Shown: positions 7,607 to 41,747 of the stretch, one piece after another
Position numbering within the stretch: the first letter of the stretch is position 1
Layout: every line of letters begins with the position of its first letter
NCBI RefSeq assembly: GCF_002954325.1
Contig: NZ_MQVX01000001.1
Location: 1,129,107-1,193,106, forward strand
Length of the DNA stretch: 64,000 nucleotides
Source: Aureicoccus marinus
GTDB taxonomy: Bacteria; Bacteroidota; Bacteroidia; Flavobacteriales; Flavobacteriaceae
Direction: 5' to 3'
The notes under the pieces: generated by a model
The model's input: only the letters and a program-made list of their open reading frames with translations
The model's database searches: none
What the model was told of the DNA's origin: nothing
Made by a program: the position numbers and the translations under genes

Positions 7607-7636
7607 AACAGTAATCTGGGGTTTAATTTTTGAGCC

Positions 7637-7664
7637 TAAAGATAGGGCAATGACTTAATTACAA
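7637..7664 (-). promoter_or_regulatory. Possible promoter of the giant surface protein gene
   Basis: On the minus strand TTG (7664-7662) is followed after 17 bases by TATCTTTA (7644-7637), seven of eight matches to the Bacteroidota -7 element TAnnTTTG. Transcription would start about 25 bases before the ATG at 7606. Visual match only. Confidence 0.3.
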
Positions 7665-21776: not shown

Positions 21777-23264
21777 TTGAAATTAGGAGAAAAAATGTTT
21801 CGTGGATTGGCTTGGAGCTCCATGGAGCGTCTCTCAATTCAGGCTATTCAATTTATCCTGGGTATTATCCTAGCCCGTATTTTGACAGAAGAACAATACG
21901 GTACAGTGGGTATCTTATTGATCTTCATTGCCATATCCAAGGTTTTTATCGATAGCGGGTTTTCACAAGCTCTCATTCAAAAGAAAAACCATAACCTGCA
22001 GGATGAGAATACCGTTTTTATATTCAATCTCTTATTGAGTATAATCTGCTATGTTATACTTTATTTAGGCGCTCCATATTTCGCCGAATTCTACAGTGAT
22101 AACCCCATACATATTGAGCTCCCACGTTATTTACGGATAATTGCCATTATCCTAATAATTAATGCTTTTGGTGCTGTTCCTCTGACCCTTGTAACAAAAG
22201 AATTAAATTTTAAGGTGCAAACTATAATCAATGCCATTGCTTCCATTTTATCCGGCGTTGTAGCGGTTTATTTGGCCTACGACGGCTATGGAGTTATGGC
22301 CCTTATCTATCAGCAAATAGTTCGTGCTTTAATAGCCCTAGTTGCAATTTACGCCTTGATTAAATGGAGACCTTTATGGATCTTTTCGTGGCATTCATTC
22401 AAAGATTTATTTCGATATGGTTCTAATATATTGATCGGCTCTGTTTTGGGAGTATTGGTAAATAACTTAAGTGCCGTTTTTATTCCCAAAATGCTTAGTG
22501 TCTCCCAATTTGGCTATTACACTCGAGGAATGCAATTCTCAGATTTTGCGTTTGGGGTAGTTAACTCTACTCTAGGAAGAGTGATTTTCCCAGGTCTCTC
22601 CAGAGTTCAGGATGATCTGAGTAGACTTGTGGGTCATACTCGTCAAATTATTAAACTCGTGGCAATACTGAACGTCCCGCTATTTATGTTCCTTGCAGTT
22701 CTTGCAAAACCGATCATAGTGGTATTATTAACAGAAAGATGGCTTCCTGCTGCTCCGGTAATGCAATTTTTTTGTTTGGCTAGGATGGTTACCATTATCT
22801 CCGGTGTCAATGTGAGCCTAATGCAAGCAATAGGTCGTACCGATCTTATACTTCGCCAGCAGTATGTAAAGATTGCCGTAAGGATAGGGCTTTTAGTATT
22901 TGCCTTTCAATATGGAATCGTATACGTTGCCCTGGCAGAATTGATTTCTACTTCAATCCATTTCTTCATCAATACTTATCACCCAGGTAAGATTATGAAG
23001 TACGGTGCTTTAAAGCAACTCTGGGACCTGAAGGAGATTTTTACAGTAGGCATGTTCGCTTCTGGCATTACATACTTTACCAATATGTTCTTGTCCTTGC
23101 ATTGGTTTCAGCAAAATTTAGGTGAAATAATAGGAGGAGTAGTCTATCTCCTAATTTGCTTCTTAATTGGAGGAATATTCTATTTGCTACTTTGTCGTTT
23201 GTTGAAAATACGCGAATTCAAAACGATTATAAATCAATTAAAGTCGCTGATCAATAATCGCTAA
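21777..23264 (+). CDS. wzx: Wzx-like oligosaccharide flippase (MOP superfamily)
   Basis: 495 aa with about 12-14 predicted membrane helices. The N-terminus (FRGLAWSSMERLSIQAIQFILGIILARILTEEQYG) and the internal RYGSNILIGS are typical of Polysacc_synt_3/Wzx flippases. TTG 21777 gives the usual short cytoplasmic lead; ATG 21795 is an alternative, preceded by TTAGGAG. It would flip the lipid-linked repeat unit to the periplasmic side. It follows fcl by 35 bases. The C-terminal third resembles the truncated wzx stump at 29926-30219 (both contain IHFFINTY and KYGA). Confidence 0.88.
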   Translation: MKLGEKMFRGLAWSSMERLSIQAIQFILGIILARILTEEQYGTVGILLIFIAISKVFIDSGFSQALIQKKNHNLQDENTVFIFNLLLSIICYVILYLGAPYFAEFYSDNPIHIELPRYLRIIAIILIINAFGAVPLTLVTKELNFKVQTIINAIASILSGVVAVYLAYDGYGVMALIYQQIVRALIALVAIYALIKWRPLWIFSWHSFKDLFRYGSNILIGSVLGVLVNNLSAVFIPKMLSVSQFGYYTRGMQFSDFAFGVVNSTLGRVIFPGLSRVQDDLSRLVGHTRQIIKLVAILNVPLFMFLAVLAKPIIVVLLTERWLPAAPVMQFFCLARMVTIISGVNVSLMQAIGRTDLILRQQYVKIAVRIGLLVFAFQYGIVYVALAELISTSIHFFINTYHPGKIMKYGALKQLWDLKEIFTVGMFASGITYFTNMFLSLHWFQQNLGEIIGGVVYLLICFLIGGIFYLLLCRLLKIREFKTIINQLKSLINNR

Positions 23265-23601
23265 TTAGGCCATTTAAGAGAAAAGATTACCCTGGAATTT
23301 TTCTTCACATTAGGATAAGGATAAAGTCTAAGTCTTAAAGTTTTCCCAAGTTTATTTTCATTAAATTTAATGAATATCCCAGAGGTGGTTTTGTAAGTCA
23401 TACATGTATAACCAAAAGAGTTACAATAAACCGAATCCATATGCTTCGATTTCTTATCCATACACTCACCTTTGGCAAGAATAAATACGAGATCTTCAAC
23501 TGGATGCTTTTTAAGCAAGAAAAGGTCGTTTATGCGGATATACCTAGAATAAATGGGTTCTTATCCCTCAGGAGAAGTTGCCAGGGAGTCATCTGCAAAA
23601 A
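23261..23601 (-). pseudogene. 3' fragment of an unidentified minus-strand gene, cut at an IS end
   Basis: The minus strand reads as convincing coding sequence from about 23601 to the TAG at 23261 (e.g. YSRYIRINDLFLLKKHPVED, then KTLRLRLYPYPN), interrupted by one in-frame TAA at 23561-23563. No start codon or N-terminus is present: the frame begins exactly where an 18-bp IS end is found (23602-23619). I do not recognise the protein. It is convergent with wzx and overlaps its stop. Probably the remnant of a polysaccharide gene removed by IS-associated deletion. Confidence 0.5.
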
Positions 23602-23619
23602 TTTAGCTGACGGTTTACA
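23602..23619. mobile_element. Orphan IS terminal sequence (18 bp)
   Basis: The 18 bases TTTAGCTGACGGTTTACA are identical to the last 18 bases of both IS copies (ends at 25830 and 29925). No transposase sequence adjoins it. On one side lies a truncated gene, on the other the downstream flank of a GT4 gene. It marks a third former insertion or a deletion endpoint. Confidence 0.8.
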
Positions 23620-23689
23620 TACTACCCAAAAAAGAATTAATCACGGTTATTTGTAGAACAGTAAATGAGTCAGTAAACAGCCTGCTAAC

Positions 23690-24817
23690 TCAGCTTCTAA
23701 GTCGGTATAATGACCGATAGGATAGGGCGATATCACTCCAATTGAAAACCCCTATAAGAGACTTATTAATAGTTAAACTATTATAGTTATTGATACAATT
23801 CAATATGGCAGTCTGAATGGATTCAACAGTAATTTGGTTTACGGCTATTCCACAATTAGCATTCCTTAAAAATCCACTAATTCCTTCACCCTGTTTATAA
23901 ATTACCGGTAAGCCTTGAGAAAGAGCTTCGATATAAACTAAGCCGAACAGTTCGTGTTCAGCAATCATTGCAAAACAGCTAGCCTCTCTATAATACTTTA
24001 ATAATGACTCTTTCTCTTTGACAACCCCTTTATACTCAACATATTTCGAGGAATCGATTGCCCTTAAAACATTCTGATAGTATTCTTTTTCCTTCGCATT
24101 GGCACCGCCTACAACGACAAGCTCAACAGCCAACTCTTTGACTTTATTAATTTGATTTACTGCCGAAATCAAATCAATAACATGCTTCCTTCGTTGGATT
24201 TGACCAACATAAATGATCTTGAACACCTTTTGATTTTCTAACAACCCTTTTTTTCGGTAATTGTTATGCCAAAAATCATCAATGCCATTGGGAATAGTTG
24301 CAAATTTTTTCTTGAGTTGCTCTCTCCACCGTACCGAAATCATGCCTGATAGCAGACTTCTGTAAGAGTCCGATATAAAAATAATCTTTTCCGCATTTTT
24401 GAGGACCTTATGAACATAAGGTCTTCGATGATACATCAACTTATACTGTAACCCAACATCTGTACTGCGGATAGCCACGATATACTTCAAGCCGAACTTC
24501 TTCTTTAGTTTGTAAGCTACAACACCGTCATTGTATAAGTTATGCGCATGAACAAAATCAACGTTCTCATGCAGTCCTAGCTTAATTATTCTACGTGTAA
24601 GCGTTCTAATCTTATACCTAAACCTGTACTTATGATCTTTACGAATGATCTTATCAAAAAATAAACTAGTGTTAGGTAGATCAACCTGGTTCTCAGGCTC
24701 GCGATTGTACTTGATTGGAATATAAACCCTTTGTTCACAATGTGCATCCTGTGCACCATGTAAAGACGAATATAGGTGATTGTCTATGTAATACGAATTG
24801 AGGTGCAATATCACCAT
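23690..24817 (-). CDS. Glycosyltransferase family 4 protein
   Basis: 375 aa from the ATG at 24817. A longer frame exists upstream (to 24877), but that extension runs into the IS (left end 24865) and is not family sequence; 24817 matches the start of the paralogue at 37236. GT-B fold: N-terminal ILHLNSYYIDNHL, FVHAHNLYNDG (~97), C-terminal YVGQIQRRKH (~225), and the GT4 nucleotide-binding acidic pair in ELFGLVYIEALSQGLP (~315). It is about half identical by eye to the frameshifted GT4 at 37236-38368. The IS copy sits 48 bases upstream and may have removed its original promoter. Confidence 0.85.
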   Translation of the reverse strand: MVILHLNSYYIDNHLYSSLHGAQDAHCEQRVYIPIKYNREPENQVDLPNTSLFFDKIIRKDHKYRFRYKIRTLTRRIIKLGLHENVDFVHAHNLYNDGVVAYKLKKKFGLKYIVAIRSTDVGLQYKLMYHRRPYVHKVLKNAEKIIFISDSYRSLLSGMISVRWREQLKKKFATIPNGIDDFWHNNYRKKGLLENQKVFKIIYVGQIQRRKHVIDLISAVNQINKVKELAVELVVVGGANAKEKEYYQNVLRAIDSSKYVEYKGVVKEKESLLKYYREASCFAMIAEHELFGLVYIEALSQGLPVIYKQGEGISGFLRNANCGIAVNQITVESIQTAILNCINNYNSLTINKSLIGVFNWSDIALSYRSLYRLRS

Positions 24818-24905
24818 GGCTTTATTTTGAGTATTAAACATTGGGAGGGTTTGATGCATGCAGGTGTACGTCTTCAAGTGAAACTGGACTAATGCTTAGT
24901 GAAAG

Positions 24906-25373
24906 TTAGGCACTATTTTTTAGTTTTCTTTTGTGGTAATTTTTCCTTCTAATTTGGATTGTTCTCTGTTTGATTTTGTCTCTTCGTTTTAGGATTCTAT
25001 GGTGCCTTCCTGTGATCACATCTTCAGGGGTCACATTGCCGAGTGATTCGTGATATCGATCACTATTGTAGAAGTGTACAAATTCATCAATAGCCAGTTT
25101 TAAATGTTCCGGACTGTAGTAATTATCGAGTTTAATCACATTCTTCAATGTCCTGTGATAGCGTTCAATCTTGCCTTGCGTTTGTGGGTGAGCTGGTGCT
25201 CCTCTGACATGCTTAATGCCCTTGCTTTGGACAAACGCTTGCAGATCGTGGGAGATGTAACAGGAGCCATTGTCTGAGAGTAACTTGGGAGCTTGGTCTT
25301 TGGTTAATCCCGTTCTCTTTAAAGCCATATCAATTGTTCTGTTGACTCCCAGCTCTGATTGTGAGTAACGCAT
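24906..25373 (-). pseudogene. IS3-family transposase OrfB, internally deleted
   Basis: 155 codons against 327 in copy B. The N-terminus MRYSQSE joins LGVNRT and then IDMALKRTG, so most of the helix-turn-helix region and the first catalytic Asp (WQTDFTYF in copy B) are gone. The second Asp (LLSDNGSCY) and the Glu (TQGKIERYH) remain. The reading frame is intact, but a DDE enzyme lacking its first Asp should be inactive. Confidence 0.88.
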
Positions 25374-25387
25374 ATACGGATGGTACT

Positions 25388-25729
25388 TTACAAGCTTTTT
25401 TTAAGACCACGGATCTCCAGGGTTTGCTCTGCTACTGTAAGCTTGAGATCGTGATTCTCTTTCTTGAGTTCTTCTACCTCTGTACTGTTTGCTTCCCGAA
25501 GGGTATCACCCTGAAGTCTTTTCTTCCCCGCTTCCATAAAGTCCTTACACCACTTGTAATAAAGACCAGAGGCTATTCCTTCCTTTCTGCAAATACTGGC
25601 TACTGATTCTTCTCCTCGAAGACCTTCAATAACAATTCTGATCTTCTCTTCTGCGGAGAATTGCCTGCGGGTTTTACGCTTAATCTCTCTTACCGTTTGG
25701 CTGGCTGATTTCTTTTGTTGTTTGGCCAT
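25388..25729 (-). CDS. IS3-family transposase OrfA (copy A)
   Basis: 113 aa from ATG 25729 (MAKQQKKS). A longer frame reaches 25786, but the family N-terminus fits 25729. Helix-turn-helix (RRQFSAEEKIRIVIEGLRGE, then SICRKEGIASGLYYKWCKDF) followed by a leucine-rich coiled coil (VEELKKENHDLKLTVAEQTL). It nearly matches copy B. A run of seven A just before the stop can move ribosomes into the -1 frame of OrfB. Confidence 0.85.
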   Translation of the reverse strand: MAKQQKKSASQTVREIKRKTRRQFSAEEKIRIVIEGLRGEESVASICRKEGIASGLYYKWCKDFMEAGKKRLQGDTLREANSTEVEELKKENHDLKLTVAEQTLEIRGLKKSL

Positions 25730-25830
25730 AATTGAATTGATTTTAAGTGATCTCCTCCCAACTCTTGGAAGGTAGAAAAGTGTCACTTAACTTTCAATCA
25801 ATTCAGTTCACTTTTAGCTGACGGTTTACA

Positions 25831-26898
25831 TTAGCCGGATCGGGCCATATTTCATATGTATGCAGATGAAGACACAGGAGCACTCGAGGAAATAATTCGT
25901 TCGATTAAAGCTAAAACAACGAGCGAAATAATGCTCTTGAATCATCATATTGCCTGGTATGGCAATAGAGACTCCCCTAAGAACCAAACTCTTAAAGACG
26001 ATAATTGCTCTCAACTTATTAATCATCTGCCCAAAAATACGGCTGTGAGCTGGTGGATGTTCAAATGGGGTGGCGAGCTTATTTAACTACAAATAAAGGG
26101 TACGATATCAATAACCTGATGGTCGACGAAGTCTACAGTAATGTACATCCTAACAATGAAGTCAATTTACTTTTAAAAGATTCAATTCTTAGACATTTTA
26201 GATTCAATCTCATAAGTCATCAGCATTATAACCGAGGCTGGTCTAATCAGATCATGGTCATTAACTTAAAATAGAGCTTACAAGAAGGAAAAAGTTCTAA
26301 TTTAACGTGATGGGGGAAATTCAGTATTGAGGATAACCACTTTCAGCTCGATTCAAGTTGGTTAGCACTTGATTTTGTTAGAAAAAAATAGAGTTGGTTC
26401 TGCCCCAGAACTGTGCCTAGGAAAGCGAAAAGCTCCTGGTGCATATTGACGGAAAAAAACCATCTGATTTTGACGAGCTTTACCTAAGGACAAGACCGTC
26501 AAGTGGCTATAATCACTGGAGTCCAGCCTTAAAAAAGGTAAGACTGGGTAAAAATTTACAATTAGAGGATTGGAAGCTGAAAATATTATCCATTGATCAC
26601 TACAAAGAATTTATTTCATATCGGCTAGAAGGATTCAATAGCGGCTTAGATTAATATGGCACAAATGAGGAGATCTTTACTTCTGATTCCGGAAGAATAC
26701 CCCTTTTTCCGTAAGACTTTTTCATCTTCGAAGCAGATAAATACACTAAAAAAATAACACCTCAAGGCTTTGACATTTATTGGAAAATAAAAGCTCAGCA
26801 TGGGGATACCATTGTAACTCAAAAAGGTAAACATAGATATGATATCGCAAAAGGGCTGCGCAACTCTAATCATCAATTGGAACAGTCATTTGCCGTTT
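25831..26898 (+). pseudogene. Degraded, 5'-truncated SGNH-hydrolase-like gene, paralogue of 34389-35984
   Basis: Several broken plus-strand frames align in order with the intact SGNH protein at 34389-35984: IIRSIKAKTTSEIMLLNHHI matches its FKTRTTAEVLIYNHHL; SNVHPNNEVNLLLKDSIL covers the Asp-x-x-His region; HIDGKKPSDFDELYLRTRPS matches FLIDGKPLSEWKKTYFVTRP; and SDSGRIPLFP, a stop, then DFFIFEADKYTKKITPQGF matches SKSGRIRINPSDFYIFESD. Stops and frameshifts occur throughout. The 5' third is missing: the gene begins at the end of IS copy A (25830). It is a true pseudogene, not a single indel. Confidence 0.8.
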
Positions 26899-26961
26899 AG
26901 AAGAACTCATTTGCTGGTAAAGGAGATAATCATTTATCAACCTGCTTTGTAATGATAGTAT

Positions 26962-28218
26962 TTAACTGAGAGGCATTAAGCAAAGTGCTCTCTTACCGGT
27001 GTGAACCGAATCAAAGCAAACCATATTCCCCGTGTGATTCATTCGAGGATGGAGATCACAGGCCCAATGCTGTCCCATTATGGATTGAAAACTTTTCAAA
27101 GAGTTTAAACTGGCCAAATATTGAACTTCGTTGGTTTTGGTATCCACTAAATACAATTTGGCCATGCGCCATTTATCCGGGTAGGTATCTGTAACAAAAA
27201 TCGTGTCCGATGCAAAACTCTGATGCCCATCAGAATTAAGTCTCGGATAGGCAACTCTTCGGTATTTTTCCATTGTCGGACTCTCAAAAAGAATATGACT
27301 ATCTACTCCCTCTAGCCTGCAGTAGGCAATGATCTGATTTTTTTCATTCCAAACATAATGAGAAACCATATCATCCGTCGGAGCTGCGTGACATTCTCCT
27401 TTTTTCAAATCGTAAACCAAGAGTCTAGACCATCTTTTTAAGGCGGCTTCTCTTTTAACAGATCGATGAAGAAAGGCCAGATACCTTCCATCAGGAGAAA
27501 ACAAAGTATGCGTTACAAAGTGAGTTTGTTCGGAGACATATCTAGGTACTTCCCCTATCGTTTTAAGTTCTTCTATACTCACTAATAATTCTCTTGTATT
27601 GGCACCTATATCAATGGTAAAAAGTCCGGTTTGTTTTGGAAAATATTCCTCTAAAAAAGCCTCCCCATCCGCATAGGGATAACCATAACCACCCATCAAC
27701 TCTTCCAGTCTTTCATAACTGAACGAGCTCGCCATTCGACCATCCTGTGAACAAGAGTCAATCGGATAATCCAATGTTTTTAGGAACTCTCCATTTTGAT
27801 GATAAATACGCGATACGAAACGATTACTCTCCCTATCGTTAAATATAACACTTTCATTATCAAGCCATTGCAGCCTACACCCCTTATGATAGTTCCAGGC
27901 CTTTGTTCTTGCCAATGGTTTGAATTCGGACCAAAAATCATTCTTGTTGAAATACCCCACTTCCAGTTCTTCGCCCGGATTCGGCATTCTTTTGGGAATC
28001 AAGTAACGATTAGCCAAGAGTAGACTATCATTTGTGTGGAAGGGATTCAGGTCGTGAAAACCAAAGAAAAATCCCTCTTTAGCAACAATTGGGTTAATAG
28101 AGTAATCTTTTCTATTTGGAAGAATATCAAAAACACCCTGGTAGGCATTACGAAGCATAAGTTTTATAATGGGGTTATTCTTGACCGCGTTATAAACCAA
28201 ACTTTCAAACTTGTTCAT
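26962..28218 (-). CDS. Beta-propeller protein of unknown function in polysaccharide locus (TolB/PL22-like fold suspected)
   Basis: 418 aa, no signal peptide. Repeated strand motifs of the HTLFSPDGRYLAFLHRS type suggest a six- or seven-bladed propeller. Conserved His-rich stretches shared with the second copy (39511-40759): FFFGFHDLNPF (~50), WNYHKGCRLQWL (~108), MVSHYVWN (~290), RLNSDGHQSF (~330), VTDTYPDK, and WACDLHPRMN near the end. Clustered histidines in a propeller recall the metal site of PL22 oligogalacturonate lyases, so a role in modifying or trimming the glycan is possible, but I cannot assign it. It sits between a pseudogene and an IS, yet it is intact. Confidence 0.6.
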   Translation of the reverse strand: MNKFESLVYNAVKNNPIIKLMLRNAYQGVFDILPNRKDYSINPIVAKEGFFFGFHDLNPFHTNDSLLLANRYLIPKRMPNPGEELEVGYFNKNDFWSEFKPLARTKAWNYHKGCRLQWLDNESVIFNDRESNRFVSRIYHQNGEFLKTLDYPIDSCSQDGRMASSFSYERLEELMGGYGYPYADGEAFLEEYFPKQTGLFTIDIGANTRELLVSIEELKTIGEVPRYVSEQTHFVTHTLFSPDGRYLAFLHRSVKREAALKRWSRLLVYDLKKGECHAAPTDDMVSHYVWNEKNQIIAYCRLEGVDSHILFESPTMEKYRRVAYPRLNSDGHQSFASDTIFVTDTYPDKWRMAKLYLVDTKTNEVQYLASLNSLKSFQSIMGQHWACDLHPRMNHTGNMVCFDSVHTGKRALCLMPLS

Positions 28219-28484
28219 TAACCAAAAATTTACTTCTGTATACTAAGAACAATAGGTCCCGGTGAAATTAATTAAATAGTTTTTCTATCCGTAAGTTAGC
28301 TCAAAAGATTATTGAGAGCAGAAATGGCTAAAAGAAGGCACTTACAAAGCGCCTATTATGAATGGTTTTTCTGGTAAGATATCTCGGAGAGATGCAAACA
28401 TGCACAATAGATAAATAAATTTATCAAAATACCCCCGAAAGGATGTACGTCTTCAAGTGAAACTGAACTAATGCTTAGTGAAAG

Positions 28485-29468
28485 TTAGGCACTATTTTTT
28501 AGTTTTCTTTTTTGATGATTTTTCCTTCTAATTTGGATTGTTCTCTGTTTGATTTTGTCTCTTCGTTTTAGGATTCTATGGTGCCTTCCTGTGAACACAT
28601 CTTCAGGGGTGACATTACCGAGTGATTCGTGATATCGATCACTATTGTAGAAGTGTACAAATTCATCAATAGCCAGTTTTAAATGTCCCGTAATGTAGTA
28701 ATTATCGAGTTTAATCACATTCTTCAATGTCCTGTGATAGCGTTCAATTTTGCCTTGTGTTTGTGGGTGAGCTGGCGCTCCTCTGACATGCTTAATGCCT
28801 TTGCTTTGGACAAAGGCTTGCAGATCGTGGGAGATATAACAGGAGCCATTGTCTGAGAGTAACTTGGGAGCTTGGTCCTTGGTTAGCCCTGTTCTTTTTA
28901 AAGCCATCTCGAGTGTTCTACTGGCATCTGAGGCTTTCATGGAAGAACAGAGTTCCCAGGCTATGATATAACGGCTGTAATCATCCATGATGGTGGAGAG
29001 GTAATACCATCCCCAGCCAATTACCCGGAAGTAGGTAAAATCAGTTTGCCACATCTGATTGATTCGAACTGTTGGGTCTTTAAAGCGATCAGAAGCACTG
29101 ATTACCTGCATGGCTGGGCCAGTGATCAACCCTGCTCTTTTTAGGATTCTGTACACACTGGATTCAGAGATAAAGTAACCTTTGTTATCCGTGTAAAGAC
29201 AAGCCAGTTCCCTTGCTGATCTCTCTGGCTGTTCTAAGGCTAGATCAAGGATATCTTCCTGGATTTGTGCCGGGATTCTATTCCAAACCACTCGCTCGGG
29301 ATTGTACTGATTCTTCAGACCTTCAAAGCCCTCTTCCTGATAACGCCTATACCAATTGTAGAAAGTGCTCTTATTGATTTTAAGCTCTACAAGGGTTCTG
29401 TTGACCCCCAGCTCTGATCCTTCCACAATGCGGATGATCTCCATCTTCTCTGATTGTGAGTAACGCAT
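28485..29468 (-). CDS. IS3-family transposase OrfB (DDE integrase core)
   Basis: 327 aa. N-terminal helix-turn-helix segments (IIRIVEGSELGVNRTLVELK, WYRRYQEEGFEGL), an HTH_21-type region (IYRILKRAGLITGPAM) and the rve integrase core with DDE residues: Asp in WQTDFTYF (~142), Asp in LLSDNGSCY (~208) and Glu in TQGKIERYHR (~244). ATG start 14 bases after the orfA stop. It is in the -1 frame of orfA, and an A7 run before the orfA stop would permit an OrfAB fusion by frameshifting. Confidence 0.93.
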   Translation of the reverse strand: MRYSQSEKMEIIRIVEGSELGVNRTLVELKINKSTFYNWYRRYQEEGFEGLKNQYNPERVVWNRIPAQIQEDILDLALEQPERSARELACLYTDNKGYFISESSVYRILKRAGLITGPAMQVISASDRFKDPTVRINQMWQTDFTYFRVIGWGWYYLSTIMDDYSRYIIAWELCSSMKASDASRTLEMALKRTGLTKDQAPKLLSDNGSCYISHDLQAFVQSKGIKHVRGAPAHPQTQGKIERYHRTLKNVIKLDNYYITGHLKLAIDEFVHFYNSDRYHESLGNVTPEDVFTGRHHRILKRRDKIKQRTIQIRRKNHQKRKLKNSA

Positions 29469-29482
29469 ATACGGATGGTACT

Positions 29483-29824
29483 TTACAAGCTTTTTTTAAG
29501 ACCACGGATCTCCAGGGTTTGCTCTGCAACAGTAAGCTTGAGATCATGATTCTCTTTCTTGAGTTCCTCTACTTCCGTACTGTTTGCTTCCCGAAGGGTA
29601 TCGCCCTGAAGTCTTTTCTTTCCTGCTTCCATAAAGTCCTTACACCACTTGTAATAAAGACCAGAGGCTATTCCTTCCTTTCTGCAAATACTGGCTACTG
29701 ATTCTTCTCCTCGAAGACCTTCAAGAACAATTCTGATCTTCTCTTCTGCGGAGAATTGCCTGCGGGTTTTACGCTTAATTTCTCTTACCGTTTGGCTGGC
29801 TGATTTCTTTTGTTGTTTGGCCAT
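29483..29824 (-). CDS. IS3-family transposase OrfA (copy B)
   Basis: 113 aa from ATG 29824. Same helix-turn-helix plus coiled-coil protein as in copy A, with at least one visible change (IRIVLEGL instead of IRIVIEGL). It binds IS ends and regulates transposition in this family. The A7 run at the 3' end (CTTAAAAAAAGC on the minus strand) is the expected frameshift site. Confidence 0.88.
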   Translation of the reverse strand: MAKQQKKSASQTVREIKRKTRRQFSAEEKIRIVLEGLRGEESVASICRKEGIASGLYYKWCKDFMEAGKKRLQGDTLREANSTEVEELKKENHDLKLTVAEQTLEIRGLKKSL

Positions 29825-29925
29825 AATTGAATTGATTTTAAGTGATCTCCTCCCAACTCTTGGAAGGTAGAAAAGTGTCACTTAACTTTCAATCAATTCA
29901 GTCCACTTTTAGCTGACGGTTTACA

Positions 29926-30219
29926 CTTTCGACCTTAATCCATTTCTTTATAAACACCTACTCGTCTGGTAGATTCATTAAGTATGGAGCAATTCACCAA
30001 ACAAAAGACTTAAAGAAAGTATTCCTAGCAAGAATAATCATGGCTGGTTTAGTATATATTTCGGGGGTTTACCTCAAATCGATAAACCATGTTGTTTGGC
30101 TATGTATTACTCCTGTATTGGCCTCTATTAGCTATCTTGCGATTGCCAAACTTTTTAATATAATGGAGCTTAGTGCGTTAATCTTCCGACTCACAGAATT
30201 TATCAAGAGTTCAAAATGA
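29926..30219 (+). pseudogene. 3' stump of a second wzx flippase gene, truncated by IS copy B
   Basis: Open frame of ~97 codons beginning exactly at the IS end: LSTLIHFFINTYSSGRFIKY, then GAIHQTKDLKKVF and two membrane segments (IIMAGLVYISGVYL; VVWLCITPVLASISYLAIA). It aligns with the C-terminal third of the Wzx at 21777-23264 (STSIHFFINTYHPGKIMKYG). Its TGA overlaps the ATG of the next glycosyltransferase (ATGA), so it was once the first gene of that operon. No N-terminal part is present. Confidence 0.85.
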
Positions 30220-31331: not shown

Positions 31332-32590
31332 AAATTCTTTGGATAACCAATACCATATTTCCTGAGTTTGCAAAATATCTTGAAATTCCTGTGCCTTTTG
31401 TAGGCGGGTGGATGTTTGGATTAGGAAGGGCAATGGCCCGGTTCGAAGATATAGAGCTAACCGTGGCCACAGTTACGGTTTCGTCTAAGGATCAAACATT
31501 TGTGTCAGAAGGTATAACTCATTACTTAATAAAGGGGAGTAAAATAAAGAATAAGTACGACAAGAGACTAGAACCTAAATGGAAAAGAATCATAGATGAA
31601 GTGCAACCCGATGTAATTCACATGCACGGCTCTGAGTACGCACATGGGCTTTCTTTGATGAAAGTTTATCCTGAAGGTAATTTCGTGGTTTCCATCCAAG
31701 GCCTAATAAGTGTTTATACACGCTACTATTTAGCGAGACTAGGTCGAGGAGACATCCTCTCGACGATCACCATAAGGGATTTGATTAAGCGTGATTCTAT
31801 TCTTGATCAACACAAAGAATTTAAAATAAGAGGCAAAACCGTCGAGTTACCGATACTTAAAGGGGTAAAACATATAATTGGACGAACGAGTTGGGATTAT
31901 TCGCACGCTAAGGCAATTAATCCGACGGTCAATTATCACTTTCAAAATGAATCTTTGAGGGATCCTTTTTACAGCTCAACCAAATGGAGTTTCGATAACT
32001 GTACTCCATATACCATCTTTATTAGCCAATCCACAAGACCTTTAAAGGGTTTGCATCAAGTAATCAAGGCAGTATCTCTCATAAATGAAGACTACCCTAA
32101 AATTCAGCTACGTATTGCAGGAAGTAACATTATTCGACCTAGCCGTTTTGGTAAAAGACCACTTAAAGGATACGGCGTATACATAAAAAAGCTTGGTGCT
32201 AAACTGGGTCTCTTAAACCAAATGACCTTCCTAGGAGGATTAACTGCCGAGCAAATGATCTCTGAATATTTAAATTGCCATTTGTTCATCTGTCCTTCTA
32301 GTATCGAAAACAGCCCAAATTCCTTAGGAGAGGCCCAAATCTTAGGGACCCCAATAATTGCTTCTTACACAGGAGGAATTCCTGATATGGTGACCCATAA
32401 AATTACTGGGCTACTCTACAGATTTGAAGAACATGAAATGCTCGCACAAGAAATCAAACGTATTTTTGACTCCCAGGAATTGAGTAAGAGCATTTCTCAA
32501 GAAGGAATTGAGGTCGCAACTATAAGGCACAATAGAGAGACCAATTCTCAACGACTGCATCAAATCTATAAAATTATTAATAACCACTAA
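31328..32590 (+). CDS. Glycosyltransferase family 4 protein
   Basis: 420 aa, GT-B. N-terminal KILWITNTIFPE and GGWMFGLGRAMA, DVIHMHGSEYAHGLS (~98), C-terminal IFISQSTRPLKGLHQVIKAV (~230), and CPSSIENSPNSLGEAQILGTP (~325), which carries the E-x7-E motif. It starts in an ATGA overlap with the preceding GT4, so it is in the same operon. It probably extends the lipid-linked repeat unit in the cytoplasm; sugar donor not predictable from sequence. Confidence 0.87.
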   Translation: MKILWITNTIFPEFAKYLEIPVPFVGGWMFGLGRAMARFEDIELTVATVTVSSKDQTFVSEGITHYLIKGSKIKNKYDKRLEPKWKRIIDEVQPDVIHMHGSEYAHGLSLMKVYPEGNFVVSIQGLISVYTRYYLARLGRGDILSTITIRDLIKRDSILDQHKEFKIRGKTVELPILKGVKHIIGRTSWDYSHAKAINPTVNYHFQNESLRDPFYSSTKWSFDNCTPYTIFISQSTRPLKGLHQVIKAVSLINEDYPKIQLRIAGSNIIRPSRFGKRPLKGYGVYIKKLGAKLGLLNQMTFLGGLTAEQMISEYLNCHLFICPSSIENSPNSLGEAQILGTPIIASYTGGIPDMVTHKITGLLYRFEEHEMLAQEIKRIFDSQELSKSISQEGIEVATIRHNRETNSQRLHQIYKIINNH

Positions 32591-32599
32591 GAGTAAGGT

Positions 32600-33193
32600 A
32601 TGTCAGTTTTAAGACACATCTGGAGAATCGTTTCTTTGCGCTCTCTTCGATTCGCAATAATTAATAGAGTTGAACTTTCTAGCGCGAAGACTTCCTGGTC
32701 AAAAGTACCACGAATCAATGGGTTGTTACGCATTCAAGGAAAAGGTCGAATTCAGTTTGGCAAAAATGTCAAAATCAACAGCGGAAAAAATTACAACATA
32801 ATTGGAGGGGATACTCGAACTGCTTTAGTGGTAAAGAAAAATGCCCGACTCGTAATTGGCGATAATTGCGGAATTTCTAATTGTTCTATAGTTTGTCACG
32901 AATTCGTACAGCTAGGAAAAGATGTTAAAATTGGTGGAGGAGTCAAAATATACGATACTGATTTTCATCAACTTGATGCTCACCTTAGAAGAGATGCTAA
33001 GACAGACATTGGGAGAACTAAACCTGTATTCATCGATGATGATGCTTTTATTGGAGCCCACTCCATTATTTTAAAAGGATCATATGTAGGTAAAGGTGCG
33101 ATTATTGGTGCGGGCTCAGTAGTTAGAGGAAGAGTTCCTGATAATGAAATATGGACAGGTAATCCGGCAAAATTTGTTCGGAAAATCCATTAA
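32600..33193 (+). CDS. Acyltransferase with left-handed beta-helix (hexapeptide repeats)
   Basis: 197 aa. Hexapeptide repeats from ~55 onward (IQFGKNVKINSG, LVIGDNCGISNCSIVCHEFVQ), a loop with YDTDFHQLD (~123) that has the catalytic-type His, and IGAHSIILKGSYVGKGAIIGAGSVV near the end, as in maltose/CapG-type O-acetyltransferases. It would acetylate a sugar from acetyl-CoA in the cytoplasm. It follows the GT4 gene by 9 bases. Confidence 0.88.
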   Translation: MSVLRHIWRIVSLRSLRFAIINRVELSSAKTSWSKVPRINGLLRIQGKGRIQFGKNVKINSGKNYNIIGGDTRTALVVKKNARLVIGDNCGISNCSIVCHEFVQLGKDVKIGGGVKIYDTDFHQLDAHLRRDAKTDIGRTKPVFIDDDAFIGAHSIILKGSYVGKGAIIGAGSVVRGRVPDNEIWTGNPAKFVRKIH

Positions 33194-33202
33194 CTTGAAA
33201 AA

Positions 33203-34392
33203 GTGCTAGAGCTAAGACAATTCATAAAATCCTTTGGAGTAATTCTATCAGCTCTTTTGCTGATATTTCTCCTGGACCCTTATCGATTAGGGTTTCTAGC
33301 TGGTTATTTGTTAATAATCAGCATTATTCTTCAGCCAAACTTGTTCAAAAAGTTGATCGATTTTGATGCTTTTATCTTGTTCACTTTTTCTCTGATATAC
33401 GCAGCTGTCTACAGCTTTAAAATGGAACAGGGGGTTCAATTTCTCATTATTTATTCGAGCTTTCCGGCAGGATTCTACCTTATAGGTAAGCGAGTAGGAC
33501 TAACGCTGAAGTCTTCTAAACAGATGTTCCAGGTACTCTTCGTTTTGTCTTTTTGTTTTTCTATCACTGCGCTCACCTCTATCGTTCTCAACTTGGTCGA
33601 TGGTGGTTTCGTACAAACCCAGAGGGATATTGCCTTATTCTGGAATGGCAAAACTCTCAATGCAACTGCAATGGGAGGCTACTTAATATATATCTTTGTG
33701 TCCCTGGCTTCTTATTGCTCTATAAAGTCAAGTTAACAAAGGCTTTTAGGTTTTTCATGATTTTGGCCTTTATAGTGACTTTACTCTGCGTATTTAGATT
33801 AGGGAATAGAACCCAACTTGTTCTCATTGTATTGAACACCTTGATCAGTATACTCTTCATAATTCCCGTTCAAACTAAAATATCGAACCTCCAATTGATC
33901 ATACGCTTGATTATTCTTGGCAGTATTATCCTCGTGTTCTTCCCAGTAGATCTCGAAGCCGATTACCTTACCGTATTAAATTCTCGATTGGAACAAAATG
34001 ACAATACGGCTACTGCTGGTGGTCGCACCATTCGATGGGAGAAAAGTCTTGAATTAATGATTGAGCAACCATTTGGTTGGGAAAAAGAAGCTATTGGTTA
34101 TTCTCATAATATTTGGTTGGATGCTGCTCGGTACGGAGGGGTCCTGATGTTTTTCTATCTTATTTTTATCACCCTGAGGTTTTTGTCAAAAACTCTAAAT
34201 ACCATAAAACATTCTAAACACAACTTGGTTCAATTACAGCTCTTGTTATTCACCTTTGTAACTTTCGTCATATTCTTTGTAGAACCAATTCTTGAAGGGC
34301 TGTTTCACATTTTTAATTTCTACTGTCTACTTCAAGGTGTTATAAACCATTACCATATCCAAATTCATAAAGGCAGGGATTTCGAAACCTAG
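33203..34392 (+). CDS. wzy: Wzy-like O-antigen/EPS polymerase (frameshifted near 33709)
   Basis: GTG start at 33203. Two overlapping frames (33203-33736 and the frame ending at 34392) together encode ~396 aa with about ten membrane helices and the large periplasmic loop typical of Wzy/WaaL proteins (NDNTATAGGRTIRWEKSLEL, FGWEKEAIGYSHNIWLDAARYG). The first frame ends SLASYCSIKSS; the other continues FLLLYKVKLTKAFRF. Restoring one T (GGCTTCTT to GGCTTTCTT) joins them. It would polymerise repeat units on the periplasmic face and is the only polymerase candidate in the window. It overlaps the convergent SGNH gene by 4 bases. Confidence 0.78.
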
Positions 34393-35984
34393 TTATTCAT
34401 CTTGTGAGGAGAATATATTCGAAAAGCACTTATTGGAAACGGCCTACTACCTTCAATCAACTCAATGCTGAGCTTGTGAGTTTTATTGGACAATTCAAAA
34501 ATATCATTTGTCTGGGTATTCTTTGAAGAATAAACAGCATAATCGCCTATATAAGGTTGTACCTTCCAGTTAATCTTAAAACCTTTAGAAGTTCTACTTT
34601 GGGTGTGAACGTCGGATTCAAAAATGTAAAAATCAGAAGGATTAATACGAATACGACCCGATTTAGATTCAAAAACACTTTGATTAGAGCCATTTCCTTC
34701 AAATCCATTGGACTTACTAAATACCTCGTAGCTAATTTCCTTTTTATCGTGATCGATAAAGGTGATTATAAGTTCATATTCGTCTCTGACCTGTGTTCCA
34801 ACGAGATTTACTCGCTTAAGCGCTGGAGTAAAATAATCTAAACTTCTCGAAGGGCGGGTTACAAAGTACGTCTTTTTCCATTCTGATAAGGGTTTGCCAT
34901 CTATTAGAAATTTGACCTTAGCACCCTCAGATGAAGGAATGTTTAAGGGAGAAATCAGTTCAATTCGAAACCCTGTAAAAGTAACTTCCAATTTACCCTG
35001 AGTCAATAACAAAAAATCGGAACGAGGTATGAGTTGAGCATTATCGGTATTAAGGATAGAATCAAGAGTAACGTATCCTTTACCAAGTTGAATTTCATGT
35101 ATCAATTTTTCATTCTTGTCTGCCCAATGCACAGCTGTCTCTTGTTCAGAAAAGGCAGATATAATAGCTGATTCAATCAAATAATTGCCATTTCTATTTG
35201 GGTGAATTGCATCCTTCATTAAAACCGGTAATAAGATTTCAGGGTTCCTCTTTAGATAATCCTTCCAAAGAGATCGGATGTCCAGTAAAGCAAAACCATA
35301 TTTAAAACACAATTCCTGCAGTTTATTTGAACCCACATCGTCCTTTAACCATTGCTCATTTCTCTCCTTTAAATTAGATTCTGCGTTCAGATGGTGATTG
35401 TATATAAGAACTTCCGCAGTAGTTCTGGTTTTAAACTGGTGAAAAATTCCTTCGAGTTTTCTGTCTTCCACTCCCCCATATACATGAAAAACAATCAGAT
35501 CCGGTCGAAAAGGGATTACATCATGCTCAAGAGTTCTGACTAGATGCTTCGCAGTAAATCCACCTATTGATTTGTTATCAAAAATAATTTTGACACCGGG
35601 ATTAATCGATTGCATTTGATCAATTATATGCTCGCTATTTAGCCCCCTTGTAATAGACTGCCCATAAAATAGAACCCGAAGACTATCCTTTGAACCAATA
35701 GCCCCTGTTTTCAGCATAAAATTAGTCCTCTGAAGGCCTTCTGAATTAACCAGATACTCCTTTAACTTAAAATCAATATTGGGGATATCCTTCGGCCGAT
35801 TGCGCTGCCAATTTTTATATATCCTATAAGGAACAGCTGTCCAATCTAAATAGGAAGGTAAAATCCTGTAGTTCCGTTCCATAAAGGATCCATAGTATAT
35901 AAGCAGCATAAGTAATGCTATTACTGTTGTAGCCTTTATAGAAATGCTTCTTATTATTTGTACACGTTTTAGAAATTCGAGCAT
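34389..35984 (-). CDS. SGNH/GDSL-hydrolase-like protein, membrane anchored
   Basis: 531 aa. One membrane helix (residues ~15-35), then an SGNH domain: block I as FYGQSITRG (~107), HVYGGVEDRK (~165, block II/III region), NHHL and DAIHPNRNG (~258, Asp-x-x-His block V). The C-terminal ~250 residues are beta-rich (FLIDGKPLSEWKKTYFVTRP) and may bind carbohydrate. Members deacetylate or acetylate surface glycans; which one is not visible here. A decayed paralogue lies at 25831-26898. Convergent with wzy, same strand as the GT61 gene 42 bases upstream. Confidence 0.75.
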   Translation of the reverse strand: MLEFLKRVQIIRSISIKATTVIALLMLLIYYGSFMERNYRILPSYLDWTAVPYRIYKNWQRNRPKDIPNIDFKLKEYLVNSEGLQRTNFMLKTGAIGSKDSLRVLFYGQSITRGLNSEHIIDQMQSINPGVKIIFDNKSIGGFTAKHLVRTLEHDVIPFRPDLIVFHVYGGVEDRKLEGIFHQFKTRTTAEVLIYNHHLNAESNLKERNEQWLKDDVGSNKLQELCFKYGFALLDIRSLWKDYLKRNPEILLPVLMKDAIHPNRNGNYLIESAIISAFSEQETAVHWADKNEKLIHEIQLGKGYVTLDSILNTDNAQLIPRSDFLLLTQGKLEVTFTGFRIELISPLNIPSSEGAKVKFLIDGKPLSEWKKTYFVTRPSRSLDYFTPALKRVNLVGTQVRDEYELIITFIDHDKKEISYEVFSKSNGFEGNGSNQSVFESKSGRIRINPSDFYIFESDVHTQSRTSKGFKINWKVQPYIGDYAVYSSKNTQTNDIFELSNKTHKLSIELIEGSRPFPISAFRIYSPHKMNN

Positions 35985-36026
35985 ATTTGTAGAAGTTGGT
36001 TTACAGAATGACTCTTAAAAAATATA

Positions 36027-37124
36027 TCACTCCAGAATCTCTTGTAGATCAGAAAGCTCTATCTTAAAATCAACATGAAGATCAGGAGTAAGACTAGTGT
36101 CATTAACCAATTCATTAAGCTTTGAGTATTGTAAATTCGTCAATTCAGCTAATTCTTGATAAATAAGTGAGTTACTGTTGTTAGGGAAAAGTTCAATAAC
36201 TCGGGTTTCTGCTTTACAAAAGACCAAATTCGCCATACCCGCACCATGGGGACTAACTATCGTTTCAACATTAGAAAATAGACTTACTTGTTTTTCAAAA
36301 GCCATTTCCTCTAAAAAGACTTTGACAAACCCTTTCTGCTCCAGATACGAGAAAACTTCTTCCTCATTGACTAATCGACGAGTCTTAGCCTGGGACCTGC
36401 TTATAAATATCTTGGCTCTAGAATCAGGTAACTGTCTAAACTCCCCAAATAATTCCTTCAAAAAACCAGGTATCCACTCCGGCATAGGAGCAGAAGGGTC
36501 ATTGGGATGAGATGTAAGTAATAATTTGTTTGCGGTGATATGTCGATGGAATTGACTATTAACTATTTTCTCTGAAGATAAACCTAAGGACTCTAAGGCT
36601 TTTAGTTTGTATCCCTGAATTGGACCAGGCACAAGAATATAATCAATATCGTCCAAATCAGTGCCAGAGGATTGAAGAATGTGAATCCTAGATAAGGAAT
36701 CAAACAGCCAATGATAGTAGTTTTTTGAAGAACCTCCACCAGAAAGTAAGGAAAAAACAGTCCCATCAAGGGCTTTCGGTTGATCACTGTAGTAAGTCGA
36801 AGTAAAAACAATGTTTTCTTCGGGTTGAACATAGCGCCCATTTCGATAATGAAAAGAAGGTTCAGCAAGCATTTCATTATCTGAATTGACGACCACTACT
36901 GTCTTGTCATTGTCTGTGTCTATCCTTCCACCGATCAAACTGTATAACTGGGCAGAATCATTTTTAGAAGGGATCTCGCTTTGGGGTTTAAATTCAAACG
37001 AATGGAAGTAGTCCTCTTTGCTTTCATCTAATGTATAAATGACTCTCTTAGGAATAAACTGGCTTCGAAAGACTATTCGTTTAGGGTTTAAAAAACGTAC
37101 AATTCTCTTAAGTAATTTTACCAT
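36027..37124 (-). CDS. Glycosyltransferase family 61 protein
   Basis: 365 aa. GT61 (DUF563) motifs: SSKNYYHWLFDSLSRIHIL (~130), DYILVPG, KIFISRSQAKTRRLVNEEEV (~245) and ETIVSPHGAGMANLVFCKAE (~290). GT61 enzymes include xylosyl- and other pentosyl/hexosyl-transferases. It is unusual among the neighbouring GT4 and GT2 types and is divergently placed from the GT4 at 37236. It probably transfers a side-chain or backbone sugar; donor unknown. Confidence 0.87.
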   Translation of the reverse strand: MVKLLKRIVRFLNPKRIVFRSQFIPKRVIYTLDESKEDYFHSFEFKPQSEIPSKNDSAQLYSLIGGRIDTDNDKTVVVVNSDNEMLAEPSFHYRNGRYVQPEENIVFTSTYYSDQPKALDGTVFSLLSGGGSSKNYYHWLFDSLSRIHILQSSGTDLDDIDYILVPGPIQGYKLKALESLGLSSEKIVNSQFHRHITANKLLLTSHPNDPSAPMPEWIPGFLKELFGEFRQLPDSRAKIFISRSQAKTRRLVNEEEVFSYLEQKGFVKVFLEEMAFEKQVSLFSNVETIVSPHGAGMANLVFCKAETRVIELFPNNSNSLIYQELAELTNLQYSKLNELVNDTSLTPDLHVDFKIELSDLQEILE

Positions 37125-37235
37125 TGTTCTTACCTAGACTATTAAAAAAAATAGTTATTTCGTGGGGCTTGTAGGAAGCTGGCACAAATGTAAGCCAAGA
37201 ATACCTTTTATTCTCTAATTAAAAGACTACAATAG

Positions 37236-38368
37236 ATGAGGATCTTACACATCAATTCTTACTATATCGATAATCATCTCTATTCCTACCTATATAGAGA
37301 GTTAGATTCAAGTCATAAACAAACGATTTATGTTCCCATCAAATGGAACCGCAGTCCTGAAAATCAAGTTGATTTAGCACAAGGAGAGTTACATTTTTCC
37401 AGGATTCTGAAAAAAAAGCATAAATTTCTCTTTAAGGTTAAGGTGAGAAGCCTTTTTAAGGACCTGATCGGTCGAAATTTACATGAAAACTGTGAGCTAG
37501 TTCATGCACATAACCTTTTTAATGATGGCGCATTAGCATATGAATTGTTTAAATCCTACTCCCTGCCCTTTACCGTAGCAGTGCGCAGTACTGATATCAA
37601 TTTACAGTATAAGTACATGGTTCACAGAAGAGGTTATATTCATATGGTCTTAAATTCGGCCCGAGATATCATTTTTATTTCTGAAGTATCACGTAAAAAA
37701 TTCCTTGACATGTTACCAGAGGGTTTGTCTAAATCGCTGGAAAAAAAAACCATGGTAATTCCTAACGGTATTGATCATTTTTGGCATAAGAACACTGCAG
37801 AAAAAGCCATAAAAGACATCGATTCTCAGGAACCATTTCGTTTTATCTATGTAGGTCAGATTCTAAAAAGAAAGAAGCTTGAATTGGCCCTTCAGGCATT
37901 GAAGGAGCTGAACAAGGAAGGAAACCAATTCGAATTGATTGTGATTGGAGGAAGCAACAATTCCGAATTGGAGTATTATAGTGAAATCACGGCCGAATTT
38001 GAAAATAGGAAGGATATTCAATATCTGGGAAAAATAAAGGACAAAAAGAAATTACTCGAAGATACAGAAAAGCTGATGCCTTTCTAATGGTATCTCGAAA
38101 TGAACTTTTCGGATTGGTCTATGTCGAAGCTCTTACGCAAGGATTACCCTTAATATTTCATCGTTCAGCAGGGATTTATTCTTTTTTCAAAGGGCGGCAT
38201 TTAGGTATCGCATTGGAGGATTACTCCATCATGGAACTGAAAAATGCAATTTTAGAAATAAGAAAAGGTTACAATAATTTCACCATTGAAACGAAAGATT
38301 TCGAATCTTTTAATTGGAAAAATATCGCTGAGATCTATCAAAAGTTGTACGCTTCAATACTTGCATAA
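37236..38368 (+). CDS. Glycosyltransferase family 4 protein (frameshifted near 38065)
   Basis: ORFs 37236-38087 and 38087-38368 form one ~377-aa GT4, a paralogue of the protein at 23690-24817 (ILHINSYYIDNHLYSYLY; VHAHNLFNDGALAYEL; YVGQILKRKKLELALQAL). The first ORF leaves frame after KLLED; the other frame reads YRKADAFLMVSRNELFGLVY, and ELFGLVYVEALTQGLP carries the E-x7-E motif. Restoring one T (GATAC to GATTAC) repairs it. It starts 111 bases from the divergent GT61 gene. Confidence 0.85.
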
Positions 38369-38426
38369 CAGCGTTATTATACAATTAAAAACACAAATTA
38401 TAATTCTGTTCTCAACATCCTAAATT

Positions 38427-39497
38427 ATGAGATTACACAAGCTTGACGGTCTTAGAGGTCTTTTTAGTCTGATGGTAGTCTTTTTTCACTTTGACCCATA
38501 CGCCGTCCCTTCTTACTTATATCCCAACTTTATAATTAGAGAGTCCTGGACATTTGTCGATTTTTTCTTCGTTCTCTCTGGCTTTGTAATCAGTCTCAAC
38601 TATCACCATCTAAGCTCAAAAGAAGCGCTATGGCTTTACATGAAAAAACGATTTATACGCCTTTATCCTCTGCTCTTTTATACTGTAATGCTATTTTTTA
38701 TAGTTGATGTGAGCATCAACTATCTCATGCCAAAAATGGTAGAAAATGTTGATTCCATAGGTGTTCTGATAACCAGACTCTTTGATTCATTGTTATTTAT
38801 GAATTCCACACCTGTTTTAGGCAATAGTGGAGGAATCAATGGGCCCTCGTGGTCAATTTCAGCAGAAATGATCGCATATATGTATTTCGGATTACTATTG
38901 GTTTTTACTCCAAAAAAACTAAAGAATGTGTTGTTTGTGATAGGTATTTTATTAGGATACGCAATTTTGATTCTCGCAAAAGTACAGGATTGGGCCCTCG
39001 ATCTCAGGTTCATAAGAGGTATAATTTCTTTTAGCATTGGCTATTTTACTTGGTTTTTTTACAACAAAAAGCCAAGTAAATCTCCTAATGTAATCGAGTA
39101 TTTACTTTTAATTGTATTGGGGCTCTTACTATTTCAACTACACTCGATGGTTTTCGTCCCAAAAATGATATTCTTTACGTTTATTTTCCCTCTTTTCTTC
39201 GGGGTATTTATATATCTACTAACTGGTAGTAATGGATTGCTCTCGAAACTAATGGATTCAAAACTATTTAGATATTTAGGCAAACTCTCTTATTCCATTT
39301 ACTTAAATCATTTTCTGTTGGTATTGGTCGTTCCTGCCTTTTTCTTTAAATATTTAAAGATTACCAATACCGACACCAACACTCTTCTGAGTACTCTTTT
39401 GGTGATCATACTGACAATAGGATACAGTCATTTGACCAACTTGTTCATCGAACAAAAATGCGGTAAAGAACTGAAGAAATGGATTTTTGGCGCTTAA
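38427..39497 (+). CDS. Acyltransferase family 3 (OafA-like) membrane protein
   Basis: 356 aa, about ten membrane helices. N-terminal LDGLRGLFSLMVVFFHFDPY has the catalytic-type His of acyltransferase-3 proteins; FVDFFFVLSGFVISLNY (~45), KKRFIRLYPL (~72) and NGPSWSISAEMIAYMYFG (~135) are all family hallmarks. These proteins O-acylate polysaccharides from the cytoplasmic side. Located 58 bases after the GT4 gene and convergent with the second beta-propeller gene. Confidence 0.9.
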   Translation: MRLHKLDGLRGLFSLMVVFFHFDPYAVPSYLYPNFIIRESWTFVDFFFVLSGFVISLNYHHLSSKEALWLYMKKRFIRLYPLLFYTVMLFFIVDVSINYLMPKMVENVDSIGVLITRLFDSLLFMNSTPVLGNSGGINGPSWSISAEMIAYMYFGLLLVFTPKKLKNVLFVIGILLGYAILILAKVQDWALDLRFIRGIISFSIGYFTWFFYNKKPSKSPNVIEYLLLIVLGLLLFQLHSMVFVPKMIFFTFIFPLFFGVFIYLLTGSNGLLSKLMDSKLFRYLGKLSYSIYLNHFLLVLVVPAFFFKYLKITNTDTNTLLSTLLVIILTIGYSHLTNLFIEQKCGKELKKWIFGA

Positions 39498-39510
39498 AAC
39501 AGGGTGGGAC

Positions 39511-40759
39511 TCAAACTTCCATTATGCATAAGGCTCTTTTGCCGGTGAAGACAGAATCAAAACACATAACATTCCCTGCTCTATTCATTCGTGGATGCAA
39601 ATCACAAGCCCAATGTGATCCAGGGATAGACTGATACTTTTTCAACGAATTTAAATTAGCCAATAATTTTACCTCATTCGAGTGGATATTAACCTTAAAT
39701 ATGCGCGCCATTCTGCGTTTATCTGGATAGGTATCAGTAATAAAGTTATTGGAATCTATAAAACTTTGGTGACCATCAGAATTCAGACGTGGATAAGCCA
39801 ATCGCTCCCAGCTTAAAAGATGTGGATCTTTAAATAGAATATGACTGTCGATACCTTCCATCCTGCAAAAGGCGATAATCTGATTCTGATCGTTCCATAC
39901 ATAATGTGAAACCATATCATCAGTACCAGCTACATGAAGACTGTTTTCATGCAAGTCGTAGACCAGTAACCTTGACCATCTAAGAGCATCGTATTGTGAC
40001 GACACAGCACGATGCATAAAAGACAAGTATCGACCATCCTTTGAGAAAAGAGTATGCGTAACAAAGTTTTTTGATTCTTAACATAATCCGGCACATCACC
40101 AAATTCAAAAAGCTCTCTTATACTCAGGATTTGGCGCCGTTCATTGCTATTCAGATCAATCAAAAAAGTCCAGTTCCATCGGGAACATTCTCCTCCAAAT
40201 AAGAATCGTCCTTGTATAAATAGCCGTAGCCCCCCATACAGCTTTCTAATCTTTCATAACTAAAAGAACTTGCCAAGTGGCCACCTTCATGAACACTATC
40301 AATAGGAAAGTTTATCTTGCGTTCCTTTTTGGAACGAATATTGACTATAGTTGCTCCCATTCCTTTTTCTCCGACCGAATTATATATAACCTCCTCCTGA
40401 TTAAGCCACTGCATTCGACAACCTTTGTGATAATTCCAAGAATACGTCTCACCAATTTTAATGAATTCTTTAAGACCTCCATCAATAGTGAAATAACCCA
40501 ATTCTAAAAGATCCTTTGGTCCAGGCATTCTTCGCGGTATAGTCAACTTATTAGCAAGGACTAATTGATCATCTAAGGAAAACGGGGTGACATCATGAAA
40601 ACCGAAAAAGTAACCCTCTTTCACCGAAATAGGGTTAACAGAATAGTTTTTTTTCCTAGGCATTAGGTCAAATGCACTCTGGTATACATTTCGAATCCTT
40701 CTTTTAAGTCCCGGATTCTTCTTGACCACATCATAGATCAATTTCTCGAGTTTATTCAT
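39511..40759 (-). CDS. Second beta-propeller protein of the same unknown family (two frameshifts)
   Basis: Three ORFs (40160-40765, 39930-40163 and 39511-40026) together match the intact 418-aa protein at 26962-28218 end to end: FGFHDVTPFSLDDQLVLANK, WNYHKGCRMQWL, SYERLESCMGGYGYLY, RLNSDGHQSF, TDTYPDKRRMARI, WACDLHPRMNRAGNVMCFDS. The start 40759 (MNKLEK) is chosen by alignment with the paralogue. Restoring one base in each of two homopolymers, minus-strand T6 near 40165 and A6 near 40072, gives a single protein. Function unknown; the conserved His motifs are kept. Confidence 0.65.
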
Positions 40760-40845
40760 GGGCATTAAATAAATATTCTCTTTTCTCCGTTTAAACAGAA
40801 CGAAAATAAGATTTCAATTCAAGATGAAAAATTATATTTGCCCGC

Positions 40846-41734: not shown

Positions 41735-41747
41735 TTATTACTATTGT

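Follow-up and report, generated by a model that had tools for sequence, protein, structure and literature searches.

Likely IS-linked fusion of two divergent forms of a surface-polysaccharide cassette in Aureicoccus marinus

In Salmonella group D2, the 5′ end of group D1 is joined with the 3′ end of group E and an H-repeat remnant persists at the junction, and groups B1 and B2 carry wzy remnants together with insertion sequence (IS) elements (PMC3715488). Here we describe a 64,000-nucleotide window of the Aureicoccus marinus genome (contig NZ_MQVX01000001.1, positions 1,129,107 to 1,193,106; coordinates below are those of the window) in which profile and homology matches identify a Wzx/Wzy-type surface-polysaccharide cluster. 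This cluster likely arose through an IS-linked fusion of two cassette forms, hereafter block A and cassette B, that had diverged within one lineage. As in Salmonella D2, parts of two forms lie in one cluster, a mobile-element remnant occupies the junction and gene remnants are found nearby, whereas the parents of D2 (D1 and E) are known, those of the Aureicoccus cluster are not, and its blocks are internally rearranged. Two hallmarks of a D2-type fusion, duplicate or remnant genes from a second cassette and a mobile element exactly at the junction, are seen here. The likeness to groups B1 and B2 lies in the remnant of a processing gene beside a defective IS, with the function supplied by another gene; in contrast to their wzy remnants, however, the remnant here is that of the Wzx flippase and its replacement lies within the same cluster. 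Rearrangements of this type are already known from Salmonella and other bacteria, and by analogy the present locus would be a Flavobacteriaceae case; a literature search on O-antigen exchange in Flavobacteriaceae found no published example.

A first-pass annotation, made from the letters of the window alone, had claimed four paralogue pairs (GT4, SGNH, beta-propeller and Wzx; coordinates in Table 1), and all of them were recovered as homologues by tblastn. Wzx1 of block A matched 29926-30210 (+) with 35% identity over 105 amino acids (E 4e-13; the stump comparisons range over 35-38%), GT4a matched GT4b with 47% over 276 and 40% over 108 amino acids, and PROPa matched PROPb with 65% over 188 and 50% over 200 amino acids, while SGNHb matched 25835-26083 and 26385-26879 (+) with 33% and 38%. 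These pairwise identities, whose calculation had been proposed with the annotation, describe divergent pairs (33-65%), and a recent duplication is for that reason ruled out. As a yardstick, the counterparts from other genera share 42-50% identity with GT4a and 52-58% with PROPa, the value for the propeller-adjacent GT4 being 47-50% in most relatives and 42% in Robertkochia. The differing order and strand of the pair members hold on gene coordinates: block A reads GT4a(-), IS, SGNHa(+), PROPa(-), and cassette B reads SGNHb(-), GT61(-), GT4b(+), acyltransferase(+), PROPb(-). When the GT4a-SGNHa segment is inverted, block A becomes SGNHa(-), GT4a(+), PROPa(-), which is the order and the strands of B, and the IS then occupies the place of GT61 and of the SGNH start. 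This match is suggestive and, involving three genes only, not significant. The left end of the supposed inversion would fall at one of the IS scars described below; its right end showed none. No remnant of GT61 or acyltransferase 3 was detected in block A by tblastn, and the search for gene remnants in 23265-23600 and 28219-28444 gave just weak matches (E at least 0.01).

Three scars of a single IS3-family element, all in the same orientation, separate the blocks. The earlier placement of IS copies at the joints stands for copy 2, found at the A/B joint, and fails for copy 1 (24865-25830), which sits within block A, flanked by GT4a and the SGNH remnant; the third scar (23603-23619), which marks the joint of Wzx1 with GT4a and at which the left end of the inversion would fall, had been overlooked. 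The element was assigned to the IS3 family from its helix-turn-helix OrfA and rve-core OrfB (NF033516, 183 bits against a cutoff of 160), and its ends are TG...CA, as in that family. In two genes, the Wzx of cassette B and the SGNH gene of block A, the cut lies no more than a few bases from an IS end. The Wzx stump starts at the base right after copy 2 (29925/29926), aligns in frame from residue ~386 of the relatives' Wzx, runs for 96 codons, and overlaps at its end with the beginning of the GT4 gene that follows, which is therefore probably its native neighbor. The homology of SGNHa begins at most 5 nt from copy 1, at 25835, with ~110 N-terminal residues gone. Since it contains several in-frame stops and frame changes, SGNHa is genuinely decayed, and its 5′ truncation and in-frame stops bear out its previous description as a pseudogene.

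The nearest cassettes are found in Flagellimonas, Allomuricauda, Maribacter and Robertkochia. The first three genera have a common framework, with gene-to-gene variation, of MBOAT, GMD, FCL, Wzx, GT4, acetyltransferase, Wzy, propeller, GT4, GT2 and initiating transferase, in which the GT4 and the propeller lie on one strand, ~10 nt apart or slightly overlapping. Their cassettes differ from the Aureicoccus cluster by having single copies, no IS, and different genes where SGNH and GT61 would stand. In six relatives from these genera (L032, L033, L034, L036, L037 and L039), the framework cassette is free of IS and of internal paralogues, with a single propeller and a single GT4 next to it. The comparison with related genomes suggested earlier thus yields a single-copy, IS-free framework, found only in other genera. 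Taken together, the truncations and these relatives support the proposal of the first-pass annotation that the remnant of one cassette was fused to a second one and that IS scars mark the joints. The distribution of the propeller is patchy (8/397 genomes of the family, this one included; 4/71 in the genus Flagellimonas; 1/5), always as a single copy outside this genome, and this patchiness fits an exchangeable cassette. The SGNH gene occurs in 4/397 family genomes, this one included; no relative of it was found in nine propeller-bearing genomes, although the same query matched three other genomes of the family. The genes of both blocks have a G+C content of 0.35-0.40, against 0.457 for the genome (800 kb sampled).

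In the trees, PROPa and PROPb are sisters (support 97/84), each on a long branch, and the sisterhood of GT4a and GT4b is not rejected (approximately unbiased test, p-AU 0.40), both being of the specific GT4 type that adjoins the propeller in relatives. Because the propellers are sisters, the two cassettes are best seen as forms that diverged within a single lineage, rather than as the contributions of visibly different donors. Distinct donors for the left and the right arm are unsupported, since the concatenated arms each group with Maribacter antarcticus (82/80 and 98/99). The sister propellers and the unrejected sisterhood of the GT4 pair, together with an SGNH gene that is present in both blocks, unlike in the nine propeller-bearing relatives, are also in agreement with the main rival explanation, in which an ancestor duplicated part of its cassette in place and the copies drifted apart before IS elements arrived and truncated some of the genes. 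We consider this history improbable, as the copies are as distant as, or more distant than, those of different genera, and no relative with a duplicated cassette was found. Furthermore, the truncations start at IS ends, and the IS therefore helped to make the present arrangement, while the retention of two Wzx genes in one locus during their divergence to 38% identity seems unlikely.

Several observations nevertheless weigh against a fusion of two cassette forms. The tree-conflict check gave no supported conflict between left and right, and none of the genomes compared, all from other genera, showed an intact parental cassette of form A or B. Copies 1 and 2 of the IS differ by 3.8% (96.2% identity), copy 2 is 95% identical to another full copy elsewhere in the genome, and private differences are distributed across all three copies, so that neither window copy is fresh from the other. 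Target-site duplications are absent at both window copies and at the other full genome copy, and none, paired or crossed between copies, was found by eye, so that the path of events is unreadable. An IS3-family insertion usually produces a target-site duplication of 3-5 bp, which is lost after deletion or recombination, and the absence is consistent with either process without proving one. Finally, the assembly is rich in indels.

This last point, with the completeness of 87% of the genome (3.05 Mb, 2 contigs), bears on a second alternative, namely that the assembler joined the cassettes of two strains at a common IS repeat; the A/B joint does lie at a 1.5-kb repeat of which another full copy exists in the genome. 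We regard such a chimera as very unlikely, since a genome in two contigs implies that reads probably spanned 1.5 kb, since an internally deleted IS copy, a 17-nt end and a truncated, decayed gene are not products of an assembly mistake, and since the IS copies differ by 3.8%. When proteins of relatives were compared with a ~860-kb sample of this genome that took in the window, 6/31 conserved genes, among them GMD, were frameshifted, versus 0/33 in the reverse comparison. Because conserved genes elsewhere are shifted likewise, the frameshifts of GMD, Wzy, GT4b, PROPb and GT2, of which GT4b and PROPb are each split, are probably assembly indels, and the apparent decay of these five genes was set aside as evidence. 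This leaves three clearly decayed features, namely IS copy 1, the Wzx stump and the SGNH remnant. The extent of decay in the cluster can thus easily be overstated, most frameshifts resembling assembly indels; pseudogene calls need care, and those resting on frameshifts are not to be trusted in this genome. That the pairs are unrelated paralogues of ordinary multi-copy families, with incidental IS copies, is hardly credible: GT4 and Wzx are indeed large families, with several GT4 genes in the window, but GT4a and GT4b are both the propeller-adjacent GT4 of relatives, few genomes of the family carry the propeller and elsewhere it is present as one copy, and the truncations coincide with IS ends.

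Returning to the IS-linked fusion, IS copies would have inserted into both forms of the cassette, and the intervening sequence, including the left part of cassette B, would have been lost through a deletion next to an IS or through recombination of one IS copy with another. In the outcome, block A (Wzx1, GT4a, the SGNH remnant and PROPa) would be followed directly by cassette B, the latter starting with the C-terminal part of its Wzx. The hybrid presumably works, A providing the only complete flippase and B the only polymerase and most of the transferases; the fusion could survive since Wzx1 replaces the truncated flippase of B, and the redundant SGNH copy may have then decayed. A change of the glycan relative to the parents is plausible, and an actual serotype switch may be inferred. 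A broader proposal, which we advance tentatively and hold to be rather doubtful, is that the fusion exchanged only the flippase of a working hybrid, with polymerase and transferases kept, that Flavobacteriaceae diversify their surface glycans through module exchange at IS elements, and that the propeller is a PL22-like glycan-processing part travelling with its GT4. The locus offers a readable rearrangement of surface-polysaccharide genes in Flavobacteriaceae, its cut points being placed to within a few bases, and suggests that the flippase can be the replaced part.

Concerning the IS itself, the internal deletions of copy 1 (36 bp and 480 bp; alignment columns 472-507 and 527-1006) apparently end in the short direct repeats GTTCT and CTCTGAT, and their sequence suggests slippage-type events. 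Five more solo 5′ ends of the same element, of 54-115 bp (L014-L018), and never a 3′ end, were seen in the genome. In L015 and L018, ~400 bp beside the IS ends are 90% identical, which indicates that a repeated unit ends there.

The components of a Wzx/Wzy cluster (Wzx, Wzy, initiating transferase, Wzz/Wza) are all present, Wzy being recognized by homology with a sub-threshold Pfam match. Leftward of MBOAT lie Wzz, Wza and a Polysacc_synt_2-type epimerase, and rightward follow MBOAT, GMD, FCL, flippase, glycosyltransferases, polymerase and initiating sugar transferase. Near the Wzz gene, a reading frame that stays open for at least 2535 codons (2-7606, -) runs off the left edge of the window.

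Table 1. Positions of cluster genes and IS scars in the window; percentages are identities, and L numbers in the table designate relatives
Feature	Position	Strand	Details
MBOAT O-acyltransferase, left framework gene	17865..19301	-	PF03062; 73-76% to same-position gene in L032-L034, L036
GDP-mannose 4,6-dehydratase (gmd), frameshifted	19542..20653	+	TIGR01472; 82-85% to relatives
GDP-L-fucose synthase-like (FCL)	20653..21741	+	71-74% to relatives, same position
Wzx1, intact flippase, block A	21777..23264	+	PF13440, E 1.6e-78; 45-50% to relatives' Wzx
Solo 17-nt IS 5′ end, third scar, between Wzx1 and GT4a	23603..23619	-	exact match to IS end
GT4a, intact GT4 glycosyltransferase, block A	23690..24820	-	PF00534
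IS copy 1, IS3-family type, internally deleted	24865..25830	-	966 bp; 96.2% to copy 2
SGNHa, SGNH-like pseudogene, 5′ end lost to IS copy 1, block A	25831..26905	+	homology from 25835
PROPa, intact 418-aa beta-propeller, block A	26962..28218	-	AlphaFold model and fold comparison
IS copy 2, full-length IS3-family, A/B joint	28444..29925	-	1482 bp; NF033516, rve, HTH_Tnp_1 OrfA
Wzx stump, C-terminal 96 aa, cassette B	29926..30213	+	homology starting next to IS copy 2
Two GT4 glycosyltransferases, cassette B	30216..32590	+	PF00534; second 44-54% to relatives
Hexapeptide acetyltransferase, cassette B	32600..33193	+	PF00132; 50% to L033, same place
Wzy polymerase, cassette B, frameshifted	33203..34392	+	39-45% to relatives' Wzy; PF04932 sub-threshold
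SGNHb, intact SGNH-like, cassette B	34389..35984	-	homologue of SGNHa
GT61 glycosyltransferase, cassette B	36027..37124	-	PF04577
GT4b, cassette B, one frameshift	37236..38368	+	homologue of GT4a
Acyltransferase 3, cassette B	38427..39497	+	PF01757; 54% to L039
PROPb, cassette B propeller, frameshifted	39511..40765	-	homologue of PROPa
Transferase common to relatives (named GT2; frameshifted) and initiating sugar phosphotransferase	40846..42359	+	TIGR03025-type; both at same position in relatives

The single-sequence structure model of the SGNH protein was too poor for use (predicted local distance difference test, pLDDT, 35), while that of PROPa obtained with AlphaFold reached a pLDDT of 92.8. 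PROPa matched no Pfam family at the thresholds used, and its nearest fold is that of the oligogalacturonate lyase 3pe7 (Z 27.9 over 324 residues, root-mean-square deviation 3.4), followed by an S9 peptidase (25.1). Five histidines (55, 237, 287, 332 and 390) are invariant in 29 homologues of PROPa. A PL22-like lyase activity may be taken as a candidate lead, not as a result. The propeller family (26962-28218 in the window, and L031-L074), which has no Pfam model, is seen in or near polysaccharide genes of Bacteroidota and a few Bacillota. In L031, a lipoprotein-like gene adjoining the GT4-propeller pair (6644-7651) matches Polysacc_lyase (PF14099), and on account of this neighbor a lyase may travel with the pair.

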